This document shows positions 3,028 through 35,847 of a DNA stretch of 64,000 nucleotides, piece after piece. The translations under genes and the position numbers were made by a program. A model generated the notes under the pieces. It ran no database searches. It was not told the origin of the DNA and saw nothing but the letters and a program-made list of their open reading frames with translations. How positions within the stretch are numbered: position 1 is the stretch's first letter; every line of letters starts with the position of its first letter. The DNA comes from Arenibacterium halophilum (GTDB lineage: Bacteria > Pseudomonadota > Alphaproteobacteria > Rhodobacterales > Rhodobacteraceae): NCBI RefSeq assembly GCF_005938225.1, contig NZ_VCPC01000003.1, forward strand, positions 124,001 through 188,000. The letters run 5' to 3'.

Positions 3028-3042
3028 GGATTGGGGGCGCCG

Positions 3043-18952: not shown

Positions 18953-18980
18953 GCAACTCTCCTGGTATCGCGACCCCGGC

Positions 18981-20249
<1,269 letters not shown>

Positions 20250-21491: not shown

Positions 21492-21533
21492 GCCGTGGGT
21501 CGGATCAAAGGGCCGCAGATGCGGCGCCCGGGG

Positions 21534-21716
21534 TCAGGCCCAGATATTGCCTGCGAAGTGGTCGAAGGCCAGGCTGGCACGCTTCAGGCCGCGCGCGTCG
21601 AGTTCGGCATCGCTGAGGGCCCAGATCGCATCGAAGCGGGTCAGCGGGGTCGGCTCGGTCACCACGGTTGCGGTGGCTGCGGGTTGGGCGGCGAGGGGAG
21701 CGGAATCAAATGCCAT
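21534..21716 (-). CDS. DUF1127-like small protein
   Basis: 60 residues. The C-terminal half (TRFDAIWALSDAELDARGLKR) matches the DUF1127 pattern of a short helix and the L-S-D-x-E-L-x-x-x-G-x-x-R motif. The N-terminal half is Ala/Thr/Pro-rich and likely disordered. It lies 42 bases downstream of a second DUF1127 gene and ends at a clear terminator. In other alphaproteobacteria some small DUF1127 proteins act in phosphate or RNA-related regulation; the role here is not known. Confidence 0.75.
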   Translation of the reverse strand: MAFDSAPLAAQPAATATVVTEPTPLTRFDAIWALSDAELDARGLKRASLAFDHFAGNIWA

Positions 21717-21758
21717 GGCTAAGGGGTCCTTTCGCTGGGCAGTCGGCCGTGTGGCCGA

Positions 21759-21983
21759 TCAGAGGTAGAAACGGTCGCCGAATACGTGGCGGGCGATGTC
21801 TTCGCGCTTGATGCCGCGATCGGCCAGTTCGGCGTCGGTCAGGGCGCTGAGGGCTGCGACCTGGCGCATACGGGGGTTGTTTTCTGCGATGCGGACGAGG
21901 CCGCCGAACAGGGCCGAAAGGCCACGGGCGACGATGCCGCCAAAGTCGTTGCGCGCTGCGCTGTGTGTTGCTGTGTAAGCCAT
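21759..21983 (-). CDS. DUF1127-domain small protein
   Basis: 74 residues with a full DUF1127 pattern: an amphipathic N-terminal helix (GGIVARGLSALFGGLVRIAE) and LSALTDAELADRGIKREDIARHVFG. It is the first gene of a two-gene unit with the 60-residue paralogue downstream. The motifs of the two share ALTDAELxxRGIKR versus ALSDAELxxRGLKR, so they probably come from a duplication. A perfect inverted repeat lies about 46 bases upstream. Function not known. Confidence 0.82.
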   Translation of the reverse strand: MAYTATHSAARNDFGGIVARGLSALFGGLVRIAENNPRMRQVAALSALTDAELADRGIKREDIARHVFGDRFYL

Positions 21984-22028
21984 TTTCTTAGGTCCATAGA
22001 TGGATATTGCTGTGTTGCAGCGAACTTA

Positions 22029-22044
22029 TGCTGCACTTGCAGCA
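22029..22044. promoter_or_regulatory. Perfect palindrome TGCTGCA-N2-TGCAGCA
   Basis: A 7-base inverted repeat with a 2-base centre in the 173-base gap between the divergent DUF1127 and GntR genes. A further half-site-like GCTGTGTTGCAGC lies about 20 bases to the left (near 22008-22020). It could be an operator for either side. No regulator can be assigned. Confidence 0.45.
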
Positions 22045-22156
22045 AGCGGTAGAGCCGAAGCGGAATAGCCGCCTTGCAGCGGATGCAGATCTGGCGGTGC
22101 ATTGAAGCAGGGCGCGGGGCGGCCTAGACTCGGGCCAGTCAGGACGGGCGAGGCAT

Positions 22157-22807
22157 ATGGCGGGGCAGACAGATACGGTATTCGGGGCGGTGCTTGATGG
22201 TATCGACAAGGGCCGCCTGTTGCCCGGCGACATGCTGGACGAGGCCGCGATCATGGCGGAACATGGCGTGTCGCGGACCCCGGTGCGCGAGGCGTTAATC
22301 CAACTGGAGGCCGCCGGGCTGATCCGCCGTTTGCCGCGCAAGGGGGCGGTGCTGTTCAAGCCCACGATCGAGGAGTTCCTTGGCATTCTGGAAGTCCATG
22401 CGAGGCTGGAGGGGCAGGCGGCCGGGCTGGCGGCGCGGCGGCTGTCAGCCTCGGGGGGCGACGATCTGGAACGCGCGGTTGCGGCCTGCGAAGACCACGC
22501 TGCGCGGCAGGGCGATGGCGACCCGGACGGCTATTACCAGCTGAACATGCGCTTTCACGAGGTGGTCGCGCTGGGCGCGGGCAATCCGTTTCTGGTGGAC
22601 ATGATCAAGACCAACGCGCGCAAGCTGATGGCCTATTATCGCGCGCGCTACCGCTATCCGGGTGCGATTGCCGCCTCGGCGCGGGAACATCGCTACATTG
22701 CAACGTTGATTCGCGCCCATGCCCGGGGCGAGGCCGATGCGAAAATGACCGCGCATGTCGGGTTCGACCGCGAGACCGTGATGGATTTGCTGGCCGCGCT
22801 GGGCTAG
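22157..22807 (+). CDS. GntR-family regulator (FCD/FadR subfamily)
   Basis: 216 residues. The N-terminal winged helix (about 5-70) shows LLPGDMLDEAAIMAEHGVSRTPVREALIQLEAAGLIRRLPRKGAVL, the standard GntR signature. The C-terminal all-helical FCD domain (about 75-210) carries the ligand/metal histidines (MRFHEVV, SAREHRYIATLIRAHARGE). Such proteins usually repress catabolic genes until their acid substrate binds. It faces the amidotransferase gene, and their stop codons share the palindrome CTAG at 22804-22807. It probably controls the divergent amidotransferase/P450-ligase promoter next door. Confidence 0.9.
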   Translation: MAGQTDTVFGAVLDGIDKGRLLPGDMLDEAAIMAEHGVSRTPVREALIQLEAAGLIRRLPRKGAVLFKPTIEEFLGILEVHARLEGQAAGLAARRLSASGGDDLERAVAACEDHAARQGDGDPDGYYQLNMRFHEVVALGAGNPFLVDMIKTNARKLMAYYRARYRYPGAIAASAREHRYIATLIRAHARGEADAKMTAHVGFDRETVMDLLAALG

Positions 22808-23511
22808 CGCGCCTGTTCGAAGAACCGCGCGACGGATTCGGCAAAGGCGGCGCCATCGGCAGGGCGTTGAAGCGATGCGCGCGCGCGGGCCAACTGGTCG
22901 GGGGTCAGCGCCTCGGCCATTTCCTCGGTCAGGGCGGCGATGAAATCGGCGCTCATCTCGGGATGGTGCTGGGTGGTATAGATGTGCCGCCCGATGGCCA
23001 TGCCCGCGTTGGCGCAATCAATAGACCGGGCGATGATGCGCGCGCTTTCGGGGGCGGCAATCACCTGTTCCTTATGGCTGGCATACAGGCGGAACGGATC
23101 GGGCAGGTCTATGGCCCAATCCACCTGCGCAACTGAGTCAACTTCGACCGCGCCATGCACATAGCCGCCGGGGTTCTTGCCGATCTGCCCACCCAGCGCC
23201 AGCGCGATGGCCTGATGCCCGAAACACGCGCCGAACAGGGGAAACCGCGCGGCGTTGGCATCACGGATCAAGTCCAGCAGACGCGCGACCCAAGGCGCGC
23301 CGTCCAGAACCGAGGCCGGGCTGCCGGTGATCATCGCGCCGTCCAGCCCGCTCAGCGTGTCGGGAAACACGCTGTCCTTCACCGAAAACACCTGACACTG
23401 CCACTCTGGGCGGCGCGCGCAAATCATATCGGTGAATTTCTGCCCATCCTTCGGGTGGTGCGTGGCAAAGGCCGACTCGTCGGTATTGGTCATGAAAATG
23501 GCAAGCCGCAT
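22804..23511 (-). CDS. Class I glutamine amidotransferase-like hydrolase
   Basis: 235 residues with a complete catalytic triad: nucleophile Cys96 (FGACFGHQ), His183 and Glu185 (TTQHHPEM). The early glycine stretch (MITGSPASVLDG) forms the oxyanion region. Stand-alone amidotransferases next to glutamine-synthetase-like ligases include AtdA2 of aniline catabolism, which hydrolyses gamma-glutamylanilide, and more distantly PuuD. The divergent P450-ligase pair suggests this enzyme acts on a gamma-glutamyl amide. ATG 23511 is chosen because the fold starts there. Residues 1-90 show no other domain. Confidence 0.85.
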   Translation of the reverse strand: MRLAIFMTNTDESAFATHHPKDGQKFTDMICARRPEWQCQVFSVKDSVFPDTLSGLDGAMITGSPASVLDGAPWVARLLDLIRDANAARFPLFGACFGHQAIALALGGQIGKNPGGYVHGAVEVDSVAQVDWAIDLPDPFRLYASHKEQVIAAPESARIIARSIDCANAGMAIGRHIYTTQHHPEMSADFIAALTEEMAEALTPDQLARARASLQRPADGAAFAESVARFFEQAR

Positions 23512-23590
23512 GATCCGCACCTCTCTGGGCAAGATTTTTATATACATATTTATAAGCCTCATTAGTATACATTGCAAAGAGGGGAGTGCC
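23512..23590. promoter_or_regulatory. AT-rich divergent promoter between amidotransferase and P450
   Basis: Much richer in A/T than its surroundings. TATACAT occurs twice in the same direction, at 23541-23547 and 23566-23572, 25 bases apart. The second lies in TAGTATACATT, which resembles the GTATAC-centred sites of some FCD-type GntR regulators. Likely carries both promoters and the GntR operator. Binding is inferred. Confidence 0.5.
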
Positions 23591-24850
23591 ATGACGGTCT
23601 GGACAGCCTGGGATGACGGCCACGCCGATCTGACAAGCCACGATACCTTTGCGCGTGGCCTGCCGCTGAACACCTTCGCCCGGATGCGGGCCGAGGCGCC
23701 GCTGGAATGGACGGCCTATGACGGCGGGCAGGATTTCTGGTCGGTCACGCGGCACGCCGACATTGCCGAGATGAACAAGCAGCCCGCCATCTTCAGCTCG
23801 GCCCGTGGCATCCGCATGGAAGACCAGAGCCACGAGGAATACATGGCGCGGCGGACCTTTCAGGAAACCGACCCGCCCGAGCACAGCCAGACCCGGATGA
23901 AGCTGTTCAAGGCGTTTTCCCGCACCACCATGTCGGCCTACGAGGATACGATCCGCGACTTGTGTCAGGGCATTCTGGATCAGGCGCTGGCACAGGGCAC
24001 GTTTGATGCGACGCGCGAGATTGCGCGGCAGTTGCCGATGCGGATGCTGGGGCGGATCATCGGCCTGCCAGAGGCGGATTTGCCCTGGCTGGTGGAAAAG
24101 GGCGATGCACTGATCGCCAACACCGACCCGGATTTCACCTCTCACGTCCTCGACAAGATGACGACGGATGAATTCCGCATGATGCCGTTCAACTCGCCCG
24201 CCGGGGCCGAGTTGTACGATTATGCGCGCGAATTGATGGCGGGCAAGGCGGCGAGGGGCGACACCGGCGGCGTGCTGAACATGATCCTTGCGCCGTCCAA
24301 GGATGGCTCGGTCATTTCCGACACCGAATTCCGCAACTTCTTCTGCCTTGTGGTGGCGGCGGGCAATGACACCACGCGATACTCCATCGCGGCGGGGATT
24401 CAGGCGATGTGCCACCAGCCCGAGCTGCTGGCGCAGATGCAGGCAGGTGGTGATATTTGGGACACCGCCCCCGATGAAATCATCCGCTGGGCCACGCCGG
24501 CGATCTATTTCCGGCGCACGGCGGCGCAGGATTACAGGATGCACGGCAAGACGATCCGCGAGGGCGACAAGGTGCTGCTGTGGTGGGCCTCGGCCAACCG
24601 CGACGACACCGTGTTCGACGCGCCCGACCGGGTGGACCTGACGCGCAGCCCCAATCGCCATCTGTCGTTCGGGCAGGGCGGGCCGCATGTCTGCCTTGGC
24701 ATGTGGCTGGCTCGGCTCGAGGTGCGGGTGCTGTTCCAGGAACTTGCCAAGCGGTTGAAATCCATCGAACCTGCGGGCGATCACCTGTTCCTGCGGTCGA
24801 ATTTCGTCGGCGGGATCAAGCATCTGCCGGTGCAGGTGACCCTGGCCTGA
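23591..24850 (+). CDS. Cytochrome P450
   Basis: 419 residues, a soluble bacterial P450. The haem motif FGQGGPHVCLG places the iron ligand at Cys368; the I-helix oxygen motif is AAGNDTTR and the K-helix ExxR is EIIR. The early DPPEHSQTRMKLFKAFS is the usual region before the substrate pocket. No reductase domain is fused and no ferredoxin gene is next to it, so electrons must come from elsewhere. It is followed after 11 bases by the ligase gene and divides from the amidotransferase at a shared promoter. I infer that it hydroxylates or dealkylates the amine or its gamma-glutamyl derivative. ATG 23591 has GAGGGGAG upstream. Confidence 0.93.
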   Translation: MTVWTAWDDGHADLTSHDTFARGLPLNTFARMRAEAPLEWTAYDGGQDFWSVTRHADIAEMNKQPAIFSSARGIRMEDQSHEEYMARRTFQETDPPEHSQTRMKLFKAFSRTTMSAYEDTIRDLCQGILDQALAQGTFDATREIARQLPMRMLGRIIGLPEADLPWLVEKGDALIANTDPDFTSHVLDKMTTDEFRMMPFNSPAGAELYDYARELMAGKAARGDTGGVLNMILAPSKDGSVISDTEFRNFFCLVVAAGNDTTRYSIAAGIQAMCHQPELLAQMQAGGDIWDTAPDEIIRWATPAIYFRRTAAQDYRMHGKTIREGDKVLLWWASANRDDTVFDAPDRVDLTRSPNRHLSFGQGGPHVCLGMWLARLEVRVLFQELAKRLKSIEPAGDHLFLRSNFVGGIKHLPVQVTLA

Positions 24851-24861
24851 AGGAGGCAGCG

Positions 24862-26151
24862 ATGAAGCCCAGACTGCGTGCGATGTTCTGCGATCACCTG
24901 TCGATCATGCGGGGCAAGTATCTGCCGGGATCAAAGATCGGCGATGACGGCACGCGGTTCTGCCTCTCGGTGTTCGGCACCCACTACGACCGCGATCTGC
25001 TGGATGCTCCGGGCGCGCGGGTCAAGCAGGGCCTGCCGGATATGGAGCTGATCTGGCGTGGCGACGAAGTTCGGCAGGGGTGGGAGAAGTCGACGCAGGT
25101 GGTGCTGGGCGATCTGTATGATGACACCGGCGCGCCGCTGTCCCTGTGCCCGCGCGGCGCGCTGAAACGCGCAGTGGCCGATTGGCAGGCTCTGGGCCTC
25201 ACGCCCAAGGTGGGGATCGAGCTTGAGGCCTTTGCCTTGCAAGCCGATGAACAGGGTCGGTTGATGCCCTATGACGCGCCGGGCGGCGTGGTTTATGGCA
25301 CGGGGCCCTTTGCCGACCCGCTGCGTTTCAACGACCGCATATGGGAAATGGCGGACGATCTGGGCTTTTCGCTCGACATGATCACCTCGGAATTCGACAC
25401 GCCTCAATTTGAATATACCCTCACCTTCGACGATGCGGTGAAGGCGGTGGATGACATCGTGCTGTTTCGCCTGATGGCGCGGGAAATCGCCTTGGAATAC
25501 GGGATCGTCCTGACCTTTCTGCCCAAGCCGATTGCCGAGGCCGGTGGCTCGGGGATGCACGTCAACTTTTCCTTCACCGATGCACAGGGCGGCAATGCGC
25601 TGGCCTCGGGGCCGGTGGGCGGGCCGGATCACCTGAACGATCTGGCGCGCGGCTGTCTGGCCGGGTTGGTGCATCACCACAAGGGGCTGGCCGGGCTGGT
25701 TGCCCCCACCGCCGGGTCCTACCTGCGGCTGCAACCGGGCGCGCTGTCGGGCTATTGGCAGAACTGGGGCGGCGACCATCGCAACGTCACCACGCGGGTC
25801 AGCGGCGAAGGCGGGGCGAAGGCGCGGCTGGAACACCGCATGGCCGATGCCAGCGCCAACCCCTATACTGCCGTCGCCGCCGTGCTGCAGGCTGCGCGGC
25901 TGGGCGTGGCAGGGGGGCTGACCCTGCCGCCGATCGAAACCGGCGACGGGTTCGATCGCACCGATGCGCGCCATGGCACCGCGACCGATTTGAAGGGCGC
26001 ATTGGACGATTTGCAGGCGGATCAGGACCTTACCGATGCCGTTGGGCCGGAACTTGTGGCCAATCACCTGTACATGAAGCGCAAGGAAGTCACCAAGACG
26101 CGCGATCTGGAAGGCGACGCGCTGCGCGATTTCTACGTCTATTTCGTCTGA
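24862..26151 (+). CDS. Glutamine synthetase-like gamma-glutamyl amine ligase
   Basis: 429 residues, the length of type III / PuuA-like enzymes. ATP-glutamate ligation motifs are visible: GIELEAFAL, FDTPQFEYT, GSGMHVNFSF, TAGSYLRLQPGA and RLEHRMADASANPYTAVAA. These enzymes join glutamate to an amine (putrescine in PuuA, isopropylamine in IpuC, aniline in AtdA1) instead of ammonia. Neighbours (P450, amidotransferase, GntR) argue for a catabolic amine rather than nitrogen assimilation. AAGGAGGCAGCG precedes ATG 24862. The substrate cannot be read from sequence. Confidence 0.88.
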   Translation: MKPRLRAMFCDHLSIMRGKYLPGSKIGDDGTRFCLSVFGTHYDRDLLDAPGARVKQGLPDMELIWRGDEVRQGWEKSTQVVLGDLYDDTGAPLSLCPRGALKRAVADWQALGLTPKVGIELEAFALQADEQGRLMPYDAPGGVVYGTGPFADPLRFNDRIWEMADDLGFSLDMITSEFDTPQFEYTLTFDDAVKAVDDIVLFRLMAREIALEYGIVLTFLPKPIAEAGGSGMHVNFSFTDAQGGNALASGPVGGPDHLNDLARGCLAGLVHHHKGLAGLVAPTAGSYLRLQPGALSGYWQNWGGDHRNVTTRVSGEGGAKARLEHRMADASANPYTAVAAVLQAARLGVAGGLTLPPIETGDGFDRTDARHGTATDLKGALDDLQADQDLTDAVGPELVANHLYMKRKEVTKTRDLEGDALRDFYVYFV

Positions 26152-26241
26152 GGCTGAGGGTTTGTTAACCCGGGCGCGATAACCCGGTGCAAACGGTTGC
26201 CGCCGTGGGGCGCGGGCGGCCTTTGCTATCGGATGACCTGC

Positions 26242-27657
26242 ATGAATATCGAACCTTCCAAATCCGTCGCCCCAAAATCTGTCGCTGGCCGCTTGGCCGA
26301 TCTGCTGCGCGCGCGTCAGGCGGGCGCCTTGTCCGATCCTCAGGAAGAAGAGCCTGATCCGGACGAAAGCCCGGACTTGGCCAAGGTCGGGGATGCCCCG
26401 GAACAGGCTGAACTGGCGGAACCCGCCCCCGATACCGTCACGGCCGACGAAATCATGCTGCGCGTGGCCCGCGCCGTGCGTGGCTCCCCCGGGGGAGCCT
26501 CTTCGCCGTCCGCACCCGCTGGGGACGAGACTGCGCTGGGGCTTGAAGACTGGCGGGTGGAAGCCGCAGGGGACAGCGACGAGGCTGACACCGAGGATCG
26601 GGACGCCGGGGTCGAGGAGGGCACCGAAGACTGGAATGGAAGCGCAGGGGACGAGACTGAGGATTTGGACGCCGAGACCGTCCAGGAGACGGAGGAAGGA
26701 AGTGAGCCCCGACCGATGGAAGCGGATACTGCCTCCGCGGACGATCTGCTCGACGGCCTGTCCGAGGCACTCGCGCGTGTCGAGGCGGAAGATGCCGAAC
26801 GTGCCGCGCTGCAGGATAGGTTCGAGGGCCGGACTTTTGCGGCAGTGACGCCGGGCGAGTCGATGCCGGTCACGGTCGCGTCCTATGACGGCGCAGGGTC
26901 CGGTGACAGGGTCGCGCCAGAGGTGGGCCCGGAGCCGGAGGCAGGCCACACGGATACCAGCGGTGACCGTGGTGCACCGGCCGTCGCGGTTGTTGCGCAG
27001 CCGCATGGCATCCGCGTGCCTGACGGGCCTGGCCTGCATTCGAAACGCATCGCGCGCATGGCGGCGGGCACCTACGAACCGCGCGAGATTGACGGCGCGC
27101 TTGCGGTGGTCAGCCCTTCGGACGTGGTGCTTGACCTTGGCGCAGGCACCGGGCTGGTCGGGGCGGCCGTGGCACGTGCCATCGCTCCGCAACGGGTGAT
27201 CGCGGTTGATCCGCACCCGGATCTGGCCGAGCCTTTGGCCGCGATCTATGAATGTAACGCGCTCGCCTCGCGCGCGGAGGTCTGGCAAGGCGTTTTGGTG
27301 CCCGATGATCGCGCCCCGGATGATACCTCGCTCTTTCTCGCAGAGGATCCAGTGGCCTCGACCACGCTCGGCCCGATGAATGGGCTGCCTCCGATCTCGG
27401 TGCCTTGCCGCCGGTTTGCCGACTTTTGCGAGGAACACGGCGTGACGGTTCTGTTGGCCGACATCAACGGGGCGGAGCTTGACTTGCTGCGCGGCGCCAA
27501 CCTGTCGCATCTGCGCGCGCTGGTCATTGCGTTTCACCCCGCGGTTTACGGGGCTGAAGGGATGCGCGAGGCCAAGGCGCTGATCCAAGCCGCCGGGTTC
27601 ACCCCGCTTGAGGCCTTTTCAAATCGACTGGTCTGGACCTGCACGCGGGCAGAGTAA
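26242..27657 (+). CDS. FkbM-like SAM methyltransferase with long acidic N-terminus
   Basis: 471 residues. The first half (about 1-250) is Glu/Asp-rich, low in complexity and probably disordered. The C-terminal half (about 265-470) is a Rossmann methyltransferase fold with VVLDLGAGTGLVGAAVARAI (motif I), VIAVDPHPDL and the FkbM-type ADINGAELDLLRGANLSHLRAL. FkbM proteins usually methylate sugar or polyketide hydroxyls. The acidic extension is unusual for the family. ATG 26242 has GGATGA upstream; 26233 is an alternative. It stands alone after the ligase gene. The methyl acceptor is unknown. Confidence 0.72.
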   Translation: MNIEPSKSVAPKSVAGRLADLLRARQAGALSDPQEEEPDPDESPDLAKVGDAPEQAELAEPAPDTVTADEIMLRVARAVRGSPGGASSPSAPAGDETALGLEDWRVEAAGDSDEADTEDRDAGVEEGTEDWNGSAGDETEDLDAETVQETEEGSEPRPMEADTASADDLLDGLSEALARVEAEDAERAALQDRFEGRTFAAVTPGESMPVTVASYDGAGSGDRVAPEVGPEPEAGHTDTSGDRGAPAVAVVAQPHGIRVPDGPGLHSKRIARMAAGTYEPREIDGALAVVSPSDVVLDLGAGTGLVGAAVARAIAPQRVIAVDPHPDLAEPLAAIYECNALASRAEVWQGVLVPDDRAPDDTSLFLAEDPVASTTLGPMNGLPPISVPCRRFADFCEEHGVTVLLADINGAELDLLRGANLSHLRALVIAFHPAVYGAEGMREAKALIQAAGFTPLEAFSNRLVWTCTRAE

Positions 27658-27757
27658 CCCAATATGATTGCGAATTCGCGCCTCGGTGCGGCGCGGGATG
27701 GTCGGTGGGTGCCTATCCACCAGGTGTTCCTTTCGAAGGGAGCGCAGACCGGTCCGC

Positions 27758-29110
27758 CTAGGCCGCCGCCAGCCCGGTCGCCAAATCCGAAAGGATGCGG
27801 CTCACGTCGTCCTCTGTCACGATCAGGGGCGGCGACAGGATGATGTTCGGCCCTGATACGCGGATCATGGTGCCGCTGCGATAGGTCGCCTCCTGAACCG
27901 CGCCGATGCGCGACTTGTCGATCGGGGCCTTGGTGGCGCGGTCGCTGACCAGCTCCAGCGCGCTCATCAGGCCCTGACCGCCGCGCACGTCCCCGATCAC
28001 GTCAAAGCGATCCTTCAGCGCCAGCAATCCTTGGTACATCTGCGCCCCGCGCGCCGCGGCATTTTCCGGCAGGTTCAGGCGTTTTGTCTCGGCCAGGCAG
28101 GCCAGCGCGGCAGCCGCGCCAACGGGATGGCCCGAATAGGTATAGCCGTGCCCGATGGCGGCCTTGCCCGTCTTGTCCTGCTCGAACACCTCGGCCACGC
28201 CCTCGGCGATCATCACCGCGCCGAAGGGGAAATAGCCGTTGGTGATCGCCTTGGCGGTGCAGGCCATATCGGGCTGCACGCCCCAGTGGCGCGAGCCGGT
28301 CCAGCTGCCGGTGCGGCCAAAGGCGGTGATCACCTCGTCCGCGATCAGCAGGATGCCGTTTTTGTCGCAGAGCGCCCGCACTCCGGGCATGAAACTGGCA
28401 TGCGGCACGATCACGCCCCCCGCGCCCAGCACCGGTTCCATGATGAAGGCGGCGATGGTCTCGGCCCCCTGGAACGCGATCTCGTCCGCCAGCGCGGCCA
28501 GACATTTCTGCGCCAGCTTCTCCGGGTCGGTTTCGTCGAACGGGTTGCGATAGGTGTAGGGCACCGGAATGTGGTGGCAGCCGGGCATGAGCGGTTCATA
28601 TTGCGTGCGGAAATTCGCATTTCCGTTCACGCTCGCCCCGCCGAAATGGGTGCCGTGATAGCCCTTTTTCAGGCTCAGGAATTTCGTCCGCGACGGCGCG
28701 CCCTTGACCTTGTGATACTGCCGCGCCAGCCGCAGCGCGGTTTCCACGCTGTCCGACCCGCCCGAGGTGAAGAATGCGCGGGTCAGCCCGTCGGGGGCAA
28801 AGAAATCCCGCAGCTCTTCGGCCAGCTGGATCGCGGCGGGGTGGCTGGTGCCGCGAAAGATGGAATAATAGGGCAGTTCGTTCAGCTGTGCGGCAATCGC
28901 GTCCTTCACCGGCTGGCAGGAAAACCCAAGGTTCACGTTCCACAGCCCGCCCACGGCGTCGATGGCCTGATGTCCGTCGATATCGGTGATCCGCACGCCG
29001 TCGCCGCTGGCCACGATGGTAGGCGGGTTGGCCTGGCTGTCGGCCGGATGCGCCATCGGATGCCAGACCGAGCGGGCATTGTGTTCCTTGAGGTAATTGG
29101 AATCCTTCAT
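27758..29110 (-). CDS. Class III PLP-dependent aminotransferase
   Basis: 450 residues, typical for omega-amino acid or amine:pyruvate transaminases. Landmarks: GLWNVNLGF, FTSGGSDSVETALRLARQYH, KKGYHGTHFGGASV, EPVLGAGGVIVP, LIADEVITAFGRTG and the PLP lysine in TAKAITNGYFPFG. It forms an operon with the IclR regulator 18 bases upstream. The aldehyde dehydrogenase in the divergent operon is a likely partner: transamination of an amine gives an aldehyde that it could oxidise. GGAG precedes ATG 29110. The exact amine is not known. Confidence 0.9.
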   Translation of the reverse strand: MKDSNYLKEHNARSVWHPMAHPADSQANPPTIVASGDGVRITDIDGHQAIDAVGGLWNVNLGFSCQPVKDAIAAQLNELPYYSIFRGTSHPAAIQLAEELRDFFAPDGLTRAFFTSGGSDSVETALRLARQYHKVKGAPSRTKFLSLKKGYHGTHFGGASVNGNANFRTQYEPLMPGCHHIPVPYTYRNPFDETDPEKLAQKCLAALADEIAFQGAETIAAFIMEPVLGAGGVIVPHASFMPGVRALCDKNGILLIADEVITAFGRTGSWTGSRHWGVQPDMACTAKAITNGYFPFGAVMIAEGVAEVFEQDKTGKAAIGHGYTYSGHPVGAAAALACLAETKRLNLPENAAARGAQMYQGLLALKDRFDVIGDVRGGQGLMSALELVSDRATKAPIDKSRIGAVQEATYRSGTMIRVSGPNIILSPPLIVTEDDVSRILSDLATGLAAA

Positions 29111-29128: not shown

Positions 29129-29908
29129 TCAGGCCGCGCGGGCGGCGGGAAATGAGGGCGGGTACAGTCCGCCGATGCGCTGCGTCATGTCGCGCGCGCC
29201 GGCGGCCAGCTCGGCCCGGATGGTCTGTTTCAGCGTCTCGGTCATGCGCGACACGGGCGCGGCCACAGCCAGCGCGCCAATGGGGCGTTGATCGGGGCCA
29301 AAGACGGGGGCGGCGTGGGAATGCACATCGGCCTCGTATCCGCCGATGGATTCCGCCATGCCGTCGCGCCGGATGTCGTCCAGCCGGGCGCGGATCGCCT
29401 GGGCGCTGGTTTCCGTGTCGGGTGTAAAGGCGTGCAGGCGTTCGGCCAGCACGGCATTGACAAAATCGGGCTCGGCCCAGGCCAGCACGGCGAGCCCCGA
29501 ACCGGTGGCGTGGAAGGACAGCACCTCGGTGTCGTCCATCATCACGCGGGTCGCATAGCGCGGGCTGTAGGCGTGGCTGAGCGCGTTCAGCTTTGCCCCC
29601 TGCACCAGCGAGATATGCGCGGTTTCCCCCGTCGCGGCGCTGAGCCGGTCCAGCACCTCGCGCGAGACCGACAGGATCGGCACCGTGGCTTCGCGCAAGG
29701 CGGCAAGGCGCAGCACCTCGGGGCCAAGGCGATAGGCGCGTTCCGGCCCCACCTGTTCAACGAATCCCTGCGCCTGCAATTCGCGCAGCAACCGGTGCGT
29801 CGTCGCCTTGTTCATGCCTGACAGGCGCGTCAGATCGCTTAGCCCGATTTCGGGCCGGATCTGGGTGAATAATCCCAGCAGCGACAAGGCTTTGGTGACG
29901 GTTCCCAT
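29129..29908 (-). CDS. IclR-family transcriptional regulator
   Basis: 259 residues. The N-terminal helix-turn-helix (about 1-65) contains LSDLTRLSGMNKATTHRLLRELQAQGFV; the C-terminal IclR effector domain (about 75-250) shows VPILSVSREVLDRLSAATGETAHIS and GALAVAAPVSR. It is the first gene of a minus-strand operon with the aminotransferase and is divergent from tctCBA. A 7-base palindrome just before tctC is its likely operator. It probably controls both sides in response to the transported acid. Confidence 0.9.
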   Translation of the reverse strand: MGTVTKALSLLGLFTQIRPEIGLSDLTRLSGMNKATTHRLLRELQAQGFVEQVGPERAYRLGPEVLRLAALREATVPILSVSREVLDRLSAATGETAHISLVQGAKLNALSHAYSPRYATRVMMDDTEVLSFHATGSGLAVLAWAEPDFVNAVLAERLHAFTPDTETSAQAIRARLDDIRRDGMAESIGGYEADVHSHAAPVFGPDQRPIGALAVAAPVSRMTETLKQTIRAELAAGARDMTQRIGGLYPPSFPAARAA

Positions 29909-29983: not shown

Positions 29984-30044
29984 TTGACAGATCGACAGAC
30001 CGGGTGTCAATCTAATTCAAACCAATGGTTCAAATAATGAACCA
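29984..30044 (+). promoter_or_regulatory. tctC promoter region with palindromic operator
   Basis: TGGTTCA (30026-30032) and TGAACCA (30038-30044) are perfect inverted arms around AATAA, and an overlapping AACCA-A-TGGTT palindrome begins at 30020. A -35-like TTGACA lies at 29984-29989. No convincing -10 stands at ideal spacing (TCTAAT at 30011 is 21 bases away). The site lies between the divergent IclR and tctC genes and would suit IclR binding. Confidence 0.5.
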
Positions 30045-30063
30045 ACGCAACAGGGGAAAGACC

Positions 30064-31020
30064 ATGCCAACCAAGCGTATCGTTTCGGGGGCGTCCGCCC
30101 TTGCCATGACGGCCCTTGCCATGACGGCCTTGGCCGGTCCGGCGCTGGCCGAGTATCCGGAAAAGCCGGTGAACTTCATCGTGCCCTGGCCTCCGGGAGA
30201 TTTGGAAGACGTGCTGACCCGCATGATCGCCGAGGATTTCCAGGCCGAATACGGTGTAGCGGCGGCCGTGGTGAACAAGCCCGGCGGGGGTGGCGGCCCG
30301 TTCCCCGGCGCGATCGAGGTGGCGAATGCACCGGCCGATGGCTACACCATCGGGTCTTTCGTGATCGGCGTTCCAGTTGTCGGCCACCAGATCGACATCG
30401 CGCCGCTGACCCCGGCCAAGTTCGACCCGCTGGGCATCTTCCTGACCTATCCCTTCGTCATCGCCACCAGCGGCGACGCGCCCTATTCCTCGATGGAAGA
30501 ACTGGCCGCCTATGCCAAGGAGAACGAGGTGGCGCTGGGCCATTTCGGCGATGTGCTGACTCCGACGCAGGTGACCAAGGCCTTTGCCGTGAACGCGGGG
30601 TTCGAATGGGGCTCGGACGCGGCGTTTGACGCACTGGATTGCAACACGCTGGCCTCGGGCGATGCGGATGTCATCAACACGACGCTGCAACTGATCCTGC
30701 CCTGCCTTGACGATGTGAAGGTGCTGGTGGCGATCACCGACGAACGCATCCCGCTGGTGCCTGATGCCCCGACCATCGGAGAGCTGGACGAGAGCCTGAA
30801 CATCGCCCTGTGGAACGGGCTGTTCGTCACCAAAGACACCCCGCAGGACGTACGCGACAAGATCATCGCCGTGGCCGAAAAGACGGTGAAGAGCGAGCGC
30901 GCCCAGAATGTCGCCAAGGAAACCGGCGCGCTGGTGTACTGGCAAGGTGCCGATGAAAGCGCCCAGCGGATCGAAACGGACATCGAAACCGTGGCCCGCA
31001 TCGGCGAGCTGCTGCAATAA
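30064..31020 (+). CDS. tctC: Tripartite tricarboxylate transporter substrate-binding protein
   Basis: 318 residues. The signal peptide (to about ALA in GPALAEYPEKP) is followed by the TctC/Bug fold with VNFIVPWPPGD, VVNKPGGGGGPFPGAIEVANAPADGYTIG and PTIGELDESLN. It would bind an organic acid in the periplasm for the TctBA membrane complex encoded directly downstream. ATG 30064 is chosen because AGGGGAAAG precedes it and it begins the signal peptide. Inside the signal peptide a 15-base unit is repeated in tandem (ALAMT-ALAMT). The substrate is unknown; genes around suggest an acid from amine catabolism. Confidence 0.92.
   Translation: MPTKRIVSGASALAMTALAMTALAGPALAEYPEKPVNFIVPWPPGDLEDVLTRMIAEDFQAEYGVAAAVVNKPGGGGGPFPGAIEVANAPADGYTIGSFVIGVPVVGHQIDIAPLTPAKFDPLGIFLTYPFVIATSGDAPYSSMEELAAYAKENEVALGHFGDVLTPTQVTKAFAVNAGFEWGSDAAFDALDCNTLASGDADVINTTLQLILPCLDDVKVLVAITDERIPLVPDAPTIGELDESLNIALWNGLFVTKDTPQDVRDKIIAVAEKTVKSERAQNVAKETGALVYWQGADESAQRIETDIETVARIGELLQ
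30097..30135 (+). repeat. 15-base tandem repeat in the tctC signal peptide
   Basis: GCCCTTGCCATGACG occurs at 30097-30111 and again at 30112-30126, followed by a partial third copy. It encodes ALAMT twice and lengthens the hydrophobic core without changing the frame. Confidence 0.85.
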
Positions 31021-31074: not shown

Positions 31075-31605
31075 ATGACAACCGAACGCGAACGCCGTTT
31101 CACCGGCCCAAGGCGCGGGCAGCTTGCCTTTGCGCTGGGCTTCCTCGCGATTTCGCTGCTGCTGCTGGCGTGCATCCGCGACCAGACGGTCTGGGCGGCA
31201 AAAACCGGGCTGGCCGCCCAACCCCGGTTCTGGCCCGCGATTGGGTTGGGCGCGATGGTGGCGCTGGGCGGTCTGCATCTGTATCGCTTGCCTTGGCGGC
31301 GGTTCACCCGCTTTGACGGGGCCGAGATGCGCCGTTGGGCCGCCGCGCTGGAATATGTTCTGTGGTTCATGGCCTATGTCGTCGCAGTGCCCTATGTGGG
31401 CTACCTGCCGGTCACGATGATCTTCGTGCCGCTGCTGGCCTGGCGCATGGGCTATCGCAGCGGCCGGATGCTGGCAATTTCGGTCGGCTTTGCCGTCGCC
31501 GTGGTGCTGGTGTTCAAGATGGCGCTTTCGGTGCGTATTCCGGGCGCCGTGCTATATGAATACCTGCCCGACGCACTGCGCGGCTTTTTCATCCTGAACC
31601 TCTGA
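31075..31605 (+). CDS. tctB: Tripartite tricarboxylate transporter small membrane protein
   Basis: 176 residues with four predicted membrane helices (AFALGFLAISLLLLACI; FWPAIGLGAMVALGGLHL; YVLWFMAYVVAVPYVGYLPV; ILAISVG-like helix near residue 140). This is the normal TctB size and topology. It partners TctA in the inner membrane. It lies 54 bases after tctC, and its TGA overlaps the tctA ATG (TGATG). Confidence 0.88.
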   Translation: MTTERERRFTGPRRGQLAFALGFLAISLLLLACIRDQTVWAAKTGLAAQPRFWPAIGLGAMVALGGLHLYRLPWRRFTRFDGAEMRRWAAALEYVLWFMAYVVAVPYVGYLPVTMIFVPLLAWRMGYRSGRMLAISVGFAVAVVLVFKMALSVRIPGAVLYEYLPDALRGFFILNL

Positions 31606-33224
31606 TGGATCTGATCCTTTCCGCCATCGAGATCCTGATGCGCTGGGACGTGGCACTGGCGCTGCTGGCCGGGTCGGTCGGCGGGGTGCTGATCGGCGCG
31701 ATTCCCGGCGTTGGTCCGGCGGTGGCCATCGCCATCCTGCTGCCCGCGACCTTCAGCATGGACCCGATCGTTGGGCTGACGGTGCTGTTGGGGATTTACG
31801 GTAGTTCGATGTACGGCGGCGCGATCCCCGCGATCCTGATCAATACGCCCGGCACGGCGGTGAATGCGCTGACCACCTATGACGGCTATCCGATGACCGC
31901 GCGGGGCGAACCGCGCCGGGCGCTGTCGCTGGCCTATTCCGCGTCCTTCTTCGGCGGCGTGTTTTCCGTTCTCTGCCTGATCCTGTTCGCCCCGGTGCTG
32001 GCGCGTGTCGCACCGATGTTCGGCAGCCGAGAGATATTTCTGGCTGCGCTGCTGGGCATCATCCTTGTGATCGTCGCGCACCGGGGGCAGACGCTGATCG
32101 CCGGGGCGCTGGCGGGGCTGGGCATCTTCATCCAGTCCATCGGGCTGGAGCCGGTCAAATACTCGCAACGCTATACCTTCGATCAGACCTGGCTGTCGGG
32201 CGGGATAGACCTGATCGTGGTGGTTCTGGGGCTGTTCGCCCTGAGCCAGGCCTTCGTGCTGCTGACCAGCGAAGACGAGAAAATCCGCACCACGCGCCTG
32301 CGGGGCGGGTTGTTTCAGGGCCTGCGCGAACTGGCGCGGCATCCGCGCGTGGCGGGCGTGTCGGCCAGCTTTGGCGTGCTGATGGGGATGATCCCGGGCG
32401 TCGGCGAATTCACCGCGCAATTCATGAGCTATACCTACGCGCAGCGCACCAGCAAACGCCCCGAGGATTTCGGGCATGGTTCGTCCGAGGGGCTGATCGC
32501 TGCGGAAACCGCCAATAACGCGGTGCCGGCGGCGGCGATGGTGCCGCTGCTGGCGCTGGGCATTCCCGGCGAGGCGCTGACCGCGATGATGCTGTCGGTG
32601 TTCTATGTACACAACGTGGTGCCGGGGCCGGGGCTGTTCCAGACCCGGATGGATTTTGTCGTCGCGCTGTATATCGCGCTGCTGGTGCTGAATGTGCTGG
32701 TGCTGATCTTCTTGCTGATGGCGACGCGGCCCTTGGTGCAGGTGGTGAAGATCCCAAACCGCTTTCTGGGCATCTGCGTGCTGACGCTGTCGTTCGTCGG
32801 GGTCTATTCGCTGCGGAATTCCGCCAGCGACTGCATGATCGCCGCCGGGTTCGGGCTGTTCGGATTTGTGCTGAAACGGCTGAACATGCCCATCGTGCCG
32901 ATCATCCTTGGCATGGTTCTGGGCAACATCATGGAGGTGAAGCTGCGCGCGGGTATGGCGCGGGTCAAGACACCGCTGGATTTCATCGACCGGCCCGTCG
33001 CCTTCATCCTGTTCTGTATCATCATCATCGTCTGTGTCGCGCATCTTCGCCGAGTCTGGCTGGATCGGCGCGAGTTGAAGGAGGCCGAATGGCGCAGCAA
33101 GACACGATCAACACGCTTCGGCGGGCACCTGTTCCGGCGCAGAAGTTACTTATCGACGGAGCGTGGCAAGACGGTTCGGGCACGCCATTTGCCGTCACCT
33201 CGCCCATCGACGGATCGCGACTGA
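31605..33224 (+). CDS. tctA: Tripartite tricarboxylate transporter large membrane protein
   Basis: 539 residues with about 11-12 membrane helices. Family landmarks are AIPGVGPAVAIAILLPATF, YGSSMYGGAIPAILINTPGTA and LGIPGEALTAMML. TctA proteins are usually near 500 residues. Here the frame runs 136 bases into the aldehyde dehydrogenase gene, giving a basic tail (RSTRFGGHLFRRRSYLS) that is translated from the other gene's codons. A single G-to-A change at 33092 would create a stop in an ATGA overlap with that gene, so the tail may be recent stop-codon loss. Confidence 0.9.
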   Translation: MDLILSAIEILMRWDVALALLAGSVGGVLIGAIPGVGPAVAIAILLPATFSMDPIVGLTVLLGIYGSSMYGGAIPAILINTPGTAVNALTTYDGYPMTARGEPRRALSLAYSASFFGGVFSVLCLILFAPVLARVAPMFGSREIFLAALLGIILVIVAHRGQTLIAGALAGLGIFIQSIGLEPVKYSQRYTFDQTWLSGGIDLIVVVLGLFALSQAFVLLTSEDEKIRTTRLRGGLFQGLRELARHPRVAGVSASFGVLMGMIPGVGEFTAQFMSYTYAQRTSKRPEDFGHGSSEGLIAAETANNAVPAAAMVPLLALGIPGEALTAMMLSVFYVHNVVPGPGLFQTRMDFVVALYIALLVLNVLVLIFLLMATRPLVQVVKIPNRFLGICVLTLSFVGVYSLRNSASDCMIAAGFGLFGFVLKRLNMPIVPIILGMVLGNIMEVKLRAGMARVKTPLDFIDRPVAFILFCIIIIVCVAHLRRVWLDRRELKEAEWRSKTRSTRFGGHLFRRRSYLSTERGKTVRARHLPSPRPSTDRD

Positions 33225-34561
33225 CCACGCTGGAAGCGGCGACAGAGGCAGATGTCGAACGGGCCGTGGCAGCGGCGCGGCGTGCATTTGACAGCGGTGT
33301 CTGGTCGCGGGCGGCCCCTGCCGCGCGCAAGAAGGTGCTGCATGCCATTGCCGACCGGATCGAGGCCGAGGCGCTGGACCTCGCCGTGTTGGGCGTGCGC
33401 GACAATGGCACGGAATTGGCGATGGCGTTGAAGGCCGAGCCGGGATCGGCCGCCGGGACGTTCCGCTATTACGCCGAGGCGCTGGACAAGGTGAACGGTG
33501 AAATCGCCCCGACGGCGCCCGATGTGCTGGGGCTGGTGCACCGGATGCCGGTGGGCGTGGTGGGTGCCATCGTGCCGTGGAACTTCCCGCTGATGATCGG
33601 GGCTTGGAAGCTGGCCCCGGCGCTGGCGATGGGCAATTCCGTGGTGCTGAAACCGGCCGAAACAGCATCTTTGTCGCTGCTGCGGCTGGCGCAGATCTGT
33701 GCCGACTGCGGCCTGCCCGAGGGCGTGCTGAACGTGGTGACGGGCGCAGGTGCCGAGACGGGCAGCGCGCTGGCACTGTCGATGGGTGTGGATGTGCTGG
33801 CCTTTACCGGGTCGGGCGTGACGGGGCGGCGGTTGCTGGAAGCCTCGGCGCGGTCGAACCTGAAACGGGTCTATCTGGAGCTTGGGGGCAAGTCGCCCAA
33901 CGTAGTGTTCGCCGATGCGCCCGACCTGCGCGAGGCGGCCAAGGTCTCGGCGGCGGGGATTTTTCGCAATTCGGGACAGGTTTGCGTCGCCGGGTCGCGG
34001 TTGCTGGTACAAGCCTCGGTTCACGACGAATTCCTGGCGCTGCTGAAAGCCGAGGCCGAAGCGCTGCGCGTCGGCGACCCACTGGCCGAGGGCACCCAGA
34101 TCGGCGCGGTGAACTCCGAGGCACAGCTGGCGCGGGTGCTGTCGTTCATGGAGGGCGCGGGCGAGATCGTGACCGGCGGCGCGCGGATACTGGAGAACAC
34201 GGGCGGCACCTATATGGCGCCGACCATCGTGGCGGGCGTGGGCGCGCAGGACCGGCTGTTTCAGGAAGAGGTGTTCGGCCCGGTGCTGGCGGTAACTCCG
34301 TTCAGTGATGAAGCCGAGGCGGTCAGGTTGGCCAATGCCACCGATTTCGGGCTGGCGGCGGCGGTCTGGACCTCGGACCTGTCGCGCGCGCATCGCATGG
34401 TCGCGGCGATCCGCGCCGGGGTGGTGCATGTGAACACCTATGGCGGGGCCGACAACACGGTGCCTTTGGGGGGCGTCGGGCAGTCGGGCAACGGGCACGA
34501 CAAATCCTTGCACGCGCTGCAGAAATACGTCGATCTGCGCACGGCCTGGATCAAGCTGTGA
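33089..34561 (+). CDS. Aldehyde dehydrogenase (NAD(P)+)
   Basis: 490 residues, typical ALDH length. Visible are PWNFPLMIGAWKLAPALAMGN, KPAETASLSLL, FTGSGVTGRRLLEAS, the glutamate motif LELGGKSPN and the catalytic cysteine in NSGQVCVAGSRLL. It oxidises an aldehyde to an acid. AAGGAGGCCGA directly before ATG 33089 fixes the start, even though it lies inside the tctA frame. In this operon it would process the aldehyde made by the divergent aminotransferase. Substrate unknown. Confidence 0.93.
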   Translation: MAQQDTINTLRRAPVPAQKLLIDGAWQDGSGTPFAVTSPIDGSRLTTLEAATEADVERAVAAARRAFDSGVWSRAAPAARKKVLHAIADRIEAEALDLAVLGVRDNGTELAMALKAEPGSAAGTFRYYAEALDKVNGEIAPTAPDVLGLVHRMPVGVVGAIVPWNFPLMIGAWKLAPALAMGNSVVLKPAETASLSLLRLAQICADCGLPEGVLNVVTGAGAETGSALALSMGVDVLAFTGSGVTGRRLLEASARSNLKRVYLELGGKSPNVVFADAPDLREAAKVSAAGIFRNSGQVCVAGSRLLVQASVHDEFLALLKAEAEALRVGDPLAEGTQIGAVNSEAQLARVLSFMEGAGEIVTGGARILENTGGTYMAPTIVAGVGAQDRLFQEEVFGPVLAVTPFSDEAEAVRLANATDFGLAAAVWTSDLSRAHRMVAAIRAGVVHVNTYGGADNTVPLGGVGQSGNGHDKSLHALQKYVDLRTAWIKL

Positions 34562-34614: not shown

Positions 34615-35847
34615 ATGGCCGAGCGGACGATTCTGGTGGCCGGGACCTATGACACCAAGAGCGAGGAACTGGGCTATATCGTCGAGGTGATCCGCGCACA
34701 GGGCGGCGATGTGGTCAGCATGGATGTGAGCGTGCTGGGCGACCCGCCGGGCCGGGTGGATGTGGGCAAGCACGCGGTTGCCGCGGCGGGGGGCAGTTCG
34801 ATCGCCGAGGCGGTGGCGCGTGGCGACGAGAACAGCGCCATGCAGATCATGGCGCGCGGGGCGGCGGCAGTGGCGCTGGACCTGTATCGGTCCGGGCGCA
34901 TTCACGGGGTGATCGTGCTGGGCGGGACAATGGGCACCGATCTGGCGCTGGATCTCTGTGCCGCGCTGCCGGTGGGGGTGCCGAAATATGTGGTCTCGAC
35001 GGTCGCGTTTTCGCCGTTGCTGCCTCCGGACCGGCTGGCGCCGGATATCCAGATGATCCTCTGGGCCGGGGGGTTATATGGGTTGAACCCCGTGTGCCGT
35101 GCCTCGCTGTCTCAGGCGGCGGGGGCGGTTCTGGGGGCGGCGCGCGCGGTCGAGGCGCCGGTGTCGGGGCGTCCGCTGATCGGGATGACGAGTTTCGGCA
35201 AGACGGTGCTGCGCTACATGGTGACGCTGAAGCCGGCCTTGGAGGCACGCGGCTTCGACCTGGCCGTGTTTCATGCCACCGGCATGGGCGGGCGCGCCTT
35301 TGATGCGCTGGCGGCGCAGGGGGCCTTTGCCGCCGTGATGGATTTCGCGCCGCAGGAGGTGTCGAACCACCTGTTTGGCGGGCTCTCGGCCGGGGCCGAC
35401 CGGATGACCGGGGCGGGTCGTGCAGGCGTGCCGCAGATCGTGGCGCCGGGCTGCTATGATCTGGTCGATTTCGTCGGCTGGCAGGGGGTGCCGAGACGGC
35501 TGGAGGGGCGTCCGACCCATGCGCACAACCGGCTGCTGAGTTCCGCGATGCTGGACGCGGGCGAGCGGCGCGAGGTGGCGCGGGCGATCTGTGCCAAGAT
35601 GGCGGGGGTGCGCGGGTCGGTGGCTTTCGTGTTGCCCTCGCAGGGCTGCAACGAGTGGGATCGCCCTGGCGCCGAGTTGCACGATGCCGAGGGGTTGGCG
35701 GCGTTTTGTGACGAGATGCGCGCAGCCTGCCCGGCCAATGTGGCGCTGCACGAGATCGACGCGCACATCAATGACGCAACGTTCTGTGACACGGTGCTGC
35801 GCCTGTTTGATGGCTGGTTGGCTGATGGGACGTTGACGCGCGTCTAA
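34615..35847 (+). CDS. Tm-1-like ATP-binding protein (UPF0261)
   Basis: 410 residues, usual for UPF0261. Conserved parts: VAGTYDTKSEELGYI at the start, GGTMGTDLALDL, GMTSFGKTVLRYM, FHATGMGGRAFD, VAPGCYDLVDFV and FVLPSQGCNEWDRPG. The plant homologue Tm-1 binds ATP and a viral replication protein; bacterial members are uncharacterised and often sit with a TIM-barrel partner, which I do not see here. ATG 34615 has GGGAGAG 5 bases upstream; 34597 is an alternative. It is the last gene of the tctCBA-aldehyde dehydrogenase run, so a catabolic role is likely. Confidence 0.88.
   Translation: MAERTILVAGTYDTKSEELGYIVEVIRAQGGDVVSMDVSVLGDPPGRVDVGKHAVAAAGGSSIAEAVARGDENSAMQIMARGAAAVALDLYRSGRIHGVIVLGGTMGTDLALDLCAALPVGVPKYVVSTVAFSPLLPPDRLAPDIQMILWAGGLYGLNPVCRASLSQAAGAVLGAARAVEAPVSGRPLIGMTSFGKTVLRYMVTLKPALEARGFDLAVFHATGMGGRAFDALAAQGAFAAVMDFAPQEVSNHLFGGLSAGADRMTGAGRAGVPQIVAPGCYDLVDFVGWQGVPRRLEGRPTHAHNRLLSSAMLDAGERREVARAICAKMAGVRGSVAFVLPSQGCNEWDRPGAELHDAEGLAAFCDEMRAACPANVALHEIDAHINDATFCDTVLRLFDGWLADGTLTRV

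Follow-up and report, generated by a model that had tools for sequence, protein, structure and literature searches.

A conserved ligase, P450 and amidotransferase module in Arenibacterium halophilum, with a probable role in feeding arylethylamines into homoprotocatechuate cleavage

In the Puu pathway of polyamine catabolism, an enzyme resembling glutamine synthetase (GS) adds a glutamyl tag and a hydrolase with the class I amidotransferase fold removes it; we know of no P450 in that pathway. In isopropylamine catabolism (Ipu) by Pseudomonas sp. KIE171 and Paenarthrobacter aurescens TC1, the ligase IpuC, a multicomponent cytochrome P450 with ferredoxin and reductase, and an IpuF-like amidotransferase-type hydrolase act in series on a gamma-glutamyl amide, according to the portions of PMC6776027 that treat them. 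The oxygenase also acts on a gamma-glutamyl amide in the aniline system AtdA1/AtdA2 and its relatives TdnQ and NpaA1 (relevant portions of PMC4539516 and PMC11335346). Here we describe a locus of the 4.63-Mb genome of the marine-type bacterium Arenibacterium halophilum (G000), within a stretch of 64,000 nucleotides (the window; contig 9, 124001–188000), in which a GS-like ligase, a P450 and a class I glutamine amidotransferase-like protein (GAT) lie together beside a GntR-type regulator. We argue that this module is probably the upper pathway for an arylethylamine that feeds homoprotocatechuate (3,4-dihydroxyphenylacetate) cleavage. Its parts are:

22157..22807, plus strand: GntR/FCD regulator (Pfam GntR 60.6 bits, FCD 83.9 bits)
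22804..23511, minus strand: class I glutamine amidotransferase-like protein (GAT), predicted gamma-glutamylamide hydrolase (Pfam GATase 66.5 bits)
23512..23590, no strand: divergent promoter region of 79 bp, with a conserved operator-like motif at 23543–23571
23591..24850, plus strand: cytochrome P450, predicted to use a gamma-glutamylated amine (Pfam p450 62.2 bits)
24862..26151, plus strand: GS-like ligase, predicted gamma-glutamyl-amide synthetase (Pfam Gln-synt_C 228.5 bits)

The four genes are intact reading frames spanning 22157–26151, as an earlier note on this DNA had read them, and the scores of all five Pfam domains exceed the curated cut-offs (24 bits for Gln-synt_C). GAT and the P450–ligase pair, whose two genes are 11 bp apart, diverge over the 79-bp gap. 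The GntR gene converges on GAT with a 4-bp overlap and is thereby placed beside the divergent pair. The oxygenase next to GAT and the ligase is a P450 and not a Rieske dioxygenase, as judged by Pfam at this locus, beyond which no Rieske genes were looked for.

Ligase, P450 and amidotransferase are encoded together in both Ipu and the module, and Ipu-type genes stand side by side on the annotated TC1 plasmid pTC1. The suggestion that no described pathway has exactly such a set therefore has to be withdrawn, given the Ipu enzymes named in the same portions of PMC6776027. The module enzymes are nevertheless at most 30% identical to the pTC1 copies (ligase 29.8%, P450 25.1%); for GAT there was no full-length match, the alignment covering 73 residues at E 0.008. 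No decarboxylase, Hpa (homoprotocatechuate) or Tct (tripartite tricarboxylate transporter) gene is annotated in a 25-kb stretch of pTC1. In the ligase and P450 trees, for which frames of at least 480 residues were trimmed to their last 440–450 residues (as in the alignments), the module enzymes lie on branches apart from the pTC1 enzymes, and IpuC clusters with a different GS-like protein encoded by A. halophilum, with long branches. Judged from these comparisons, made with the pTC1 copies and with neither the other TC1 cluster, on pTC2, nor the genes of KIE171, the module enzymes are not orthologous to the pTC1 Ipu enzymes.

The aniline systems resemble the module in pairing a GS-like ligase with an amidotransferase-like protein, as far as the cited portions of those papers go, and differ in using a Rieske dioxygenase where the module has a P450. 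P450 and GS genes are neighbours by locus number (GMOLON4_437/438 and 3051/3052) among the Gulosibacter relatives of PipA and MorA, which are P450s for piperidine and morpholine, whereas the substrates there are cyclic secondary amines, and the relevant part of PMC9477822 reads the GS as ammonium assimilation and mentions no amidotransferase. In the 3,4-dihydroxyphenylacetate catabolon of Pseudomonas putida U, tyramine and dopamine end in homoprotocatechuate, according to the title of Arcos 2010 (as cited in PMC10606097 and PMC12718150). HpaD and HpaE are present in the A. halophilum genome, whereas HpaB was not found there (model TIGR02309 at E 1e-60; HpaB-2 and Acinetobacter-type models were not searched). 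To our knowledge, neither gamma-glutamylation nor a P450 takes part in the P. putida U route.

The link between the module and homoprotocatechuate rests on gene runs in relatives and on co-occurrence among genomes. In one relative (L172), a single direction carries genes for a class III aminotransferase (AT3), TctB, TctA, TctC, GAT, P450, GS-like ligase, HpaF, HpaE, HpaD, an aromatic amino acid decarboxylase, HpaG and HpaH; the gaps from GAT to HpaE are estimated at -32, -10, -1 and 1 nt, and that from HpaE to HpaD at 511 nt. A second (L171) has the same run with an aldehyde dehydrogenase (ALDH) instead of AT3 and a gap of 388 nt between decarboxylase and HpaG. The P450s of both loci are 55% identical to that of the module. 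In a third (L054), about 20 kb hold HpaH, HpaG, decarboxylase, HpaD, HpaE, HpaF, an HpaR-like regulator, GntR, GAT, P450, GS-like ligase, ferredoxin, AT3, an IclR regulator, TctCBA, ALDH and UPF0261. Gaps in these three runs were extrapolated from tblastn alignments. L171 and L172 were chosen for a nearby HpaD, as were most of L163–L178, and are excluded from the frequencies given here. A separate observation on L054 is that at 2803–4662 its VOC-type HpaD gene adjoins a gene for a LigB-type dioxygenase within one Hpa row.

We call variant A the loci in which P450 and ligase are surrounded by GAT and usually by AT3, ALDH, TctABC and UPF0261. Hpa genes or the decarboxylase are found in six (L127, L129, L130, L131, L140 and L144) of 12 further variant A loci retrieved with the P450 or the ligase only, regardless of HpaD, namely L127, L129, L130, L131 and L136 from other families and L138–L144 from the same family; of the eight non-own matches in the same family, six were taken and G005 and G031 left out. 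L127 has HpaI-, HpaH-, HpaG- and HpaF-like genes and AT3 together with HpaD (389 bits, cut-off 321) and HpaE (756 bits, cut-off 638). L136, from another class, has GAT, P450, ligase, ferredoxin, ALDH, AT3 and UPF0261, with no match to TctA or TctC. The five loci from other families come from the class and phylum searches described below, as do L128 and L132, which are truncated by contig ends and were not counted as variant A. In the A. halophilum genome itself, a row at about 87118–92794 of contig 9 comprises HpaI-like, HpaG-like, decarboxylase, HpaD and HpaE genes. HpaD (412 bits, cut-off 321) and HpaE (797, cut-off 638) lie above the curated thresholds, and the HpaI-like (353, cut-off 369) and HpaG-like (172, cut-off 276) proteins below them. 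The decarboxylase scores 395 bits to chain 7xin, described as DOPA decarboxylase, and 364 bits to a tyrosine decarboxylase structure.

Co-occurrence was measured in a sample of 295 family genomes, each from a different genus, with Fisher tests that ignore phylogeny beyond this sampling; thresholds were E up to 1e-130 for the P450, the curated cut-off for HpaD and E 1e-60 for HpaB. The P450 is present in 56 genomes and HpaD in 92 (95 at 1e-60). HpaD occurs in 50 of the 56 genomes with the P450 as against 42 of the 239 without it, and 197 genomes have neither (p 2.5e-24). HpaB, found in 26 genomes at 1e-60 and in four over its cut-off, is distributed as 7/56 against 19/239 at the lower threshold (p 0.30) and as 3/56 against 1/239 over the cut-off (p 0.02). 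Because HpaB at 1e-60 shows no such tie to the P450, the tie between P450 and HpaD appears to be more than a reflection of catabolic richness. In 11 of the 50 genomes with both, no more than 25 kb separate HpaD from the P450.

The four-gene set is conserved beyond chance, as a neighbourhood search, which the earlier note had called for, makes clear. With the ligase protein alone as query, 112 stretches were matched, 104 were confirmed and the best 80 were kept, mostly from Rhodobacteraceae and Roseobacteraceae with a few Rhizobiales. GAT is found in all 80 loci, the P450 in 79 (L053 is the locus without a match) and GntR in 67, counted over stretches of up to 10 kb on each side. In 73 of the 80 loci GAT is divergent to the P450 (74 rows minus L007, the A. 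halophilum genome itself), and in six (L066, L068, L071, L081, L086 and L087) P450, ligase and GAT all point in one direction; gene order thus varies between loci, and the linkage outlasts rearrangement. The decarboxylase occurs in eight of the 80, adjoined in seven by an HpaI-like aldolase. When 385 genomes from the class and 398 from the phylum were searched for the P450 (E up to 1e-95), it was retrieved in 11 and five of them, respectively, A. halophilum included in each. The earlier note had named a lack of joint conservation in other genomes as a ground for refutation; the conservation found supports the amine-catabolic reading first proposed there, with a ligase that glutamylates, a hydrolase of the amidotransferase type and a P450.

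The ligase retains E120, E122, E177, E184, H233, R307, E324 and R326, which we take to fill the metal and ATP roles of GS, in at least 97% of 42 aligned rows. The GFEAPV block of the organism's own GlnA, whose Glu is presumably the ammonium-site residue, reads GALSGY in the module ligase. Since this Glu is replaced by Leu, a non-ammonia substrate is to be expected. The ligase also scores far below the NCBIfam cut-offs for type I GS (152 against 429 bits), type III GS (175 against 470) and gamma-glutamylputrescine synthetase (164 against 650). Ordinary glutamine synthesis is unlikely on these features, which agrees with the earlier expectation of more than a plain glutamine maker, and nitrogen assimilation need not rest on this enzyme because the genome encodes six Gln-synt_C proteins. 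With the Gln-synt_C residues kept and the ammonium-site Glu lost, the sequence fits the gamma-glutamyl organic amide synthetases (GoaS), and ATP-dependent glutamylation of an organic amine is predicted.

C96, H183 and E185 of GAT, which we take to be the catalytic Cys, His and Glu, are each kept by 97% or more of the 33 rows aligned. In the P450 alignment, the AGNDTT block, E296/R299 and Cys368 are conserved. A near-invariant polar block, GIR(M/I)EDQ...EY.AR(R/K)TFQETD, precedes the C helix in the alphaproteobacterial rows of variant A and of the variant B described below; it is retained only partly in the Streptomyces and Embleya rows, and CYP125, CYP126, CYP268 and P450terp carry other residues at this place. 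Such a block would fit a polar tag or head group. The closest solved chain is 8vxi (CYP125MRCA, 314 bits); named CYP families follow a 40% identity rule.

The motif TACATATTTAT-N7to9-TTARTATACA, with up to five mismatches, occurs in 67 of 74 divergent gaps (the window plus the 73 loci with GAT divergent to the P450) as against four of 1480 mononucleotide shuffles. With an 8-base spacer and up to three mismatches it has a single occurrence in the A. halophilum genome. We therefore dropped the idea of a wider GntR regulon, and the regulon is probably this promoter pair only. GntR is probably a local regulator of the divergent promoter, and its binding to the motif is predicted. A sigma-70 consensus scan of 21500–28000 added little (two sites against 0.8 expected).

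Further genes are linked to the module, downstream in the window; counts are again out of the 80 loci.

27758..29110, minus strand: class III aminotransferase AT3 (PRK07481 subfamily), predicted to deaminate the freed amine (NCBIfam NF005683 734 bits, cut-off 575; 57 loci)
29129..29908, minus strand: IclR regulator (Pfam IclR_C 92.5 bits; 58 loci)
30025..31020, plus strand: TctC-type protein, the binding component of a tripartite tricarboxylate transporter (from the product annotation of the TM1040 orthologue; 58 loci)
31075..31605, plus strand: TctB-type membrane subunit (TM1040 annotation; cluster 9 in 51 of 81 records)
31605..33224, plus strand: TctA-type permease (TM1040 annotation; 55 loci)
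33089..34561, plus strand: PuuC-like aldehyde dehydrogenase, predicted to oxidize an arylacetaldehyde (best NCBIfam match PuuC, 526 bits, cut-off 850; 48 loci at 60% identity or more)
34615..35847, plus strand: UPF0261 (Tm-1-like) protein (Pfam UPF0261 N and C domains; NF002676 629 bits, cut-off 556; 44 loci)

A Fer2 ferredoxin is linked in 43 of these loci, and UPF0261 also occurs in seven of 22 further loci. The 81 records used for clustering are the window, 76 genome loci longer than 11 kb, L096, L097, L099 and L100; because the clusters mix ALDH paralogues, we prefer the locus counts, which use identity thresholds that we set ourselves. In L168, L171 and L172, TctABC stands in one co-directional run with GAT, P450 and ligase, and the ligand of this transporter could name the true starting compound. 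The TctA and ALDH frames (31605–34561) overlap by 136 nt, and those of L054 are estimated to overlap to the same extent. Two neighbours were considered as partners and set aside. A PobA-like 4-hydroxybenzoate hydroxylase and a MarR regulator (18434–20228) lie upstream of the module, and PobA stands beside it in only two of the 80 loci (L016 and L023) and one of the 22 further loci (L129, a 52% relative). An FkbM-type methyltransferase directly after the ligase (26233–27657), with a long acidic N-terminal part, is found in 18 of the 80 and none of the 22. Elsewhere in the window, a frame at 16047–17534 looks, by eye, like a caspase-type peptidase with Sel1-like repeats.

Nine loci, plasmid-borne or chromosomal and ranging from Novosphingobium to Streptomyces, form a variant B: Novosphingobium L096, L123–L126 (one family), L128, L137, Streptomyces L097 and Embleya L100. 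AT3 went unmatched in them at 50% identity and GAT at 30%; several of these loci are truncated by contig ends. In L137 a class I amidotransferase, more distantly related, adjoins the dioxygenase. All of them except L100 have a LigB-type extradiol dioxygenase (to which the LigB-type enzyme of L054 is 35% identical), and HpaE-like, HpaG-like and ADC/MppR-like genes are present in most of the stretches. The ring-cleavage enzymes score below curated cut-offs (LigB type 130 bits against 316, HpaE-like 479 against 638). A relative of DOPA decarboxylase is found in L123 (729 bits to 7xin), L124 and L126. Ring-cleavage genes beside P450 and ligase on Novosphingobium and Streptomyces plasmids had suggested aminophenol cleavage of the aniline type; we rejected this, as the genes are HpaD-, HpaE- and HpaG-like and include the DOPA-decarboxylase relative in another family. 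Alphaproteobacterial variant B proteins nest among those of variant A in the ligase and P450 trees. In the ligase tree, well-supported branches require at least two changes of type; in the P450 tree the nesting is drawn, yet it is compatible with a single origin. The trees therefore suggest that one enzyme pair, probably acting on one kind of substrate, serves both variants. Variant B might cleave the ring of a catecholamine that still carries its glutamyl tag.

The earlier note had placed the module in amine catabolism, which stands, and had looked to aniline-type or branched amines; the neighbourhood suggests instead an arylethylamine feeding homoprotocatechuate cleavage, a claim that we hold likely at the level of the compound class. 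A complete scheme, the simplest to employ these enzymes and our preferred reading, is offered with less confidence, as a serious possibility that we do not hold to be established. In it, a phenolic arylethylamine, most likely tyramine and possibly dopamine, would be imported or would arise through an aromatic L-amino acid decarboxylase, and the ligase would couple glutamate to it. The P450, with a [2Fe-2S] ferredoxin, would hydroxylate the ring of the amide, from gamma-glutamyl-tyramide to gamma-glutamyl-dopamine, and GAT would hydrolyse off the glutamate and free the catecholamine. AT3 and the aldehyde dehydrogenase would then convert the free amine to homoprotocatechuate, which the Hpa enzymes would cleave to central metabolites, with GntR acting at the motif in the divergent gap. 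The logic follows isopropylamine and aniline oxidation. The gene set, its conservation, its runs with decarboxylase and Hpa genes and its co-occurrence with HpaD are read directly from genome sequences, whereas each reaction on a named compound, the P450 step above all, is a prediction from them.

The least unlikely alternative keeps the same amine class and lets the P450 hydroxylate the carbon beside the nitrogen, so that gamma-glutamyl-dopamine would fall to glutamine and 3,4-dihydroxyphenylacetaldehyde; ligase and P450 would replace an amine oxidase, and GAT would be a glutaminase or a safety valve. It draws on variant B, where decarboxylases near DOPA decarboxylase would supply a ready-made catechol amine and where, with AT3 and GAT unmatched at the thresholds given (in loci of which several are truncated), the amine would have to leave otherwise. 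We nevertheless think it unlikely, because variant A loci always have GAT and in most cases AT3, both hardly needed in this model, because the variant B ring-cleavage enzymes are not the curated homoprotocatechuate ones, and because L137 has its distant amidotransferase beside the dioxygenase.

Next in order, and somewhat improbable, is another phenylethyl compound (phenethylamine, or an N- or beta-substituted phenolamine) leading to phenylacetate or homoprotocatechuate, with para- or side-chain hydroxylation by the P450. In 19 of the 80 loci the module has PaaA, an enzyme of the phenylacetyl-CoA route, encoded nearby, and a PaaK gene (688 bits, cut-off 646) lies beside the Hpa row of A. halophilum; none of the 22 further loci has PaaA close to the module, however, so its proximity may reflect gene order shared among close relatives. 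We doubt still more the narrow form of the earlier note's idea, in which small or branched amines would be degraded after the pattern of aniline or isopropylamine and the Hpa linkage would be incidental: the gene set is the one described for Ipu, but the pTC1 proteins are distant, IpuC clusters with the other GS-like protein, and the linkage to and co-occurrence with HpaD and the decarboxylase would be left unexplained. Polyamine catabolism of the Puu kind, or plain nitrogen assimilation, is very improbable although gamma-glutamylation is Puu logic and the linked ALDH is closest to PuuC, since the ligase falls far short of the gamma-glutamylputrescine synthetase model, a P450 has no place that we know of in the Puu pathway and the GlnA ammonium-site Glu is replaced.

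Several observations weigh against the arylethylamine pathway and should be set beside its support. HpaD and the P450 lie 57 kb apart in the A. halophilum genome, and the family sample corrects for phylogeny only by genus. Substitution of the P450 for HpaB would predict more HpaB among the HpaD genomes without the P450, which is not seen (8/42, against 7/50 with it; p 0.58), so that the idea of mutual exclusion was given up. HpaB even stands beside the module in L130 (541 bits, cut-off 480) and L131. HpaD over its cut-off is missing from six genomes with the P450 (G003, G833, G848, G891, G916 and G972). The Tritonibacter horizontis O3.65 locus (L046) carries the module, and two of seven homoprotocatechuate genes are reported for this strain in the pertinent part of PMC5064897; this report lowered our confidence at the class level slightly, from high to its present degree. 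TctABC hints at the import of a carboxylate, a step absent from the scheme, and UPF0261 is given no part in it. No ferredoxin gene was found beside the module in the A. halophilum genome, where two Fer2 ferredoxins at 36–41% identity are located elsewhere.

As a set, these genes are already known from Ipu; the substrate class and the set of partners appear to be new. In the openly licensed literature, searched by titles and the beginnings of abstracts, nothing among the matches listed joins gamma-glutamyl-tyramine or -dopamine to a catabolic P450; papers naming such amides deal, by title, with methanofuran and methylofuran cofactors, metabolite profiling, pond snails, depression and drug delivery. 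More tentatively than the scheme itself, we propose a so far undescribed route by which tyrosine-derived amines would reach homoprotocatechuate independently of HpaB. Gamma-glutamyl masking would let a P450, and not a flavin hydroxylase, form the catechol. In a second form (variant B, in Novosphingobium, further alphaproteobacterial families, Streptomyces and Embleya), the catechol ring would be cleaved with the tag on, ending in gamma-glutamyl-aminobutyraldehyde, the Puu intermediate; the retained tag would prevent cyclisation of the free amine with the cleaved ring.

The interest of the locus is that its neighbours point to a substrate class and that the prediction is cheap to test, with concrete predictions for strains such as Ruegeria pomeroyi (L050). 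If it is right, a P450 and ligase pair for producing catecholamine derivatives would be at hand, and an upper pathway would be suggested for part of the Hpa gene sets, HpaB being unmatched at E 1e-60 in 77 of the 92 HpaD genomes (other 4-hydroxyphenylacetate hydroxylases were not searched). A P450 carried by 56 of the 295 sampled genera of the family would gain a function, and glutamate tagging would be a general strategy of amine oxidation, beyond isopropylamine and aniline.

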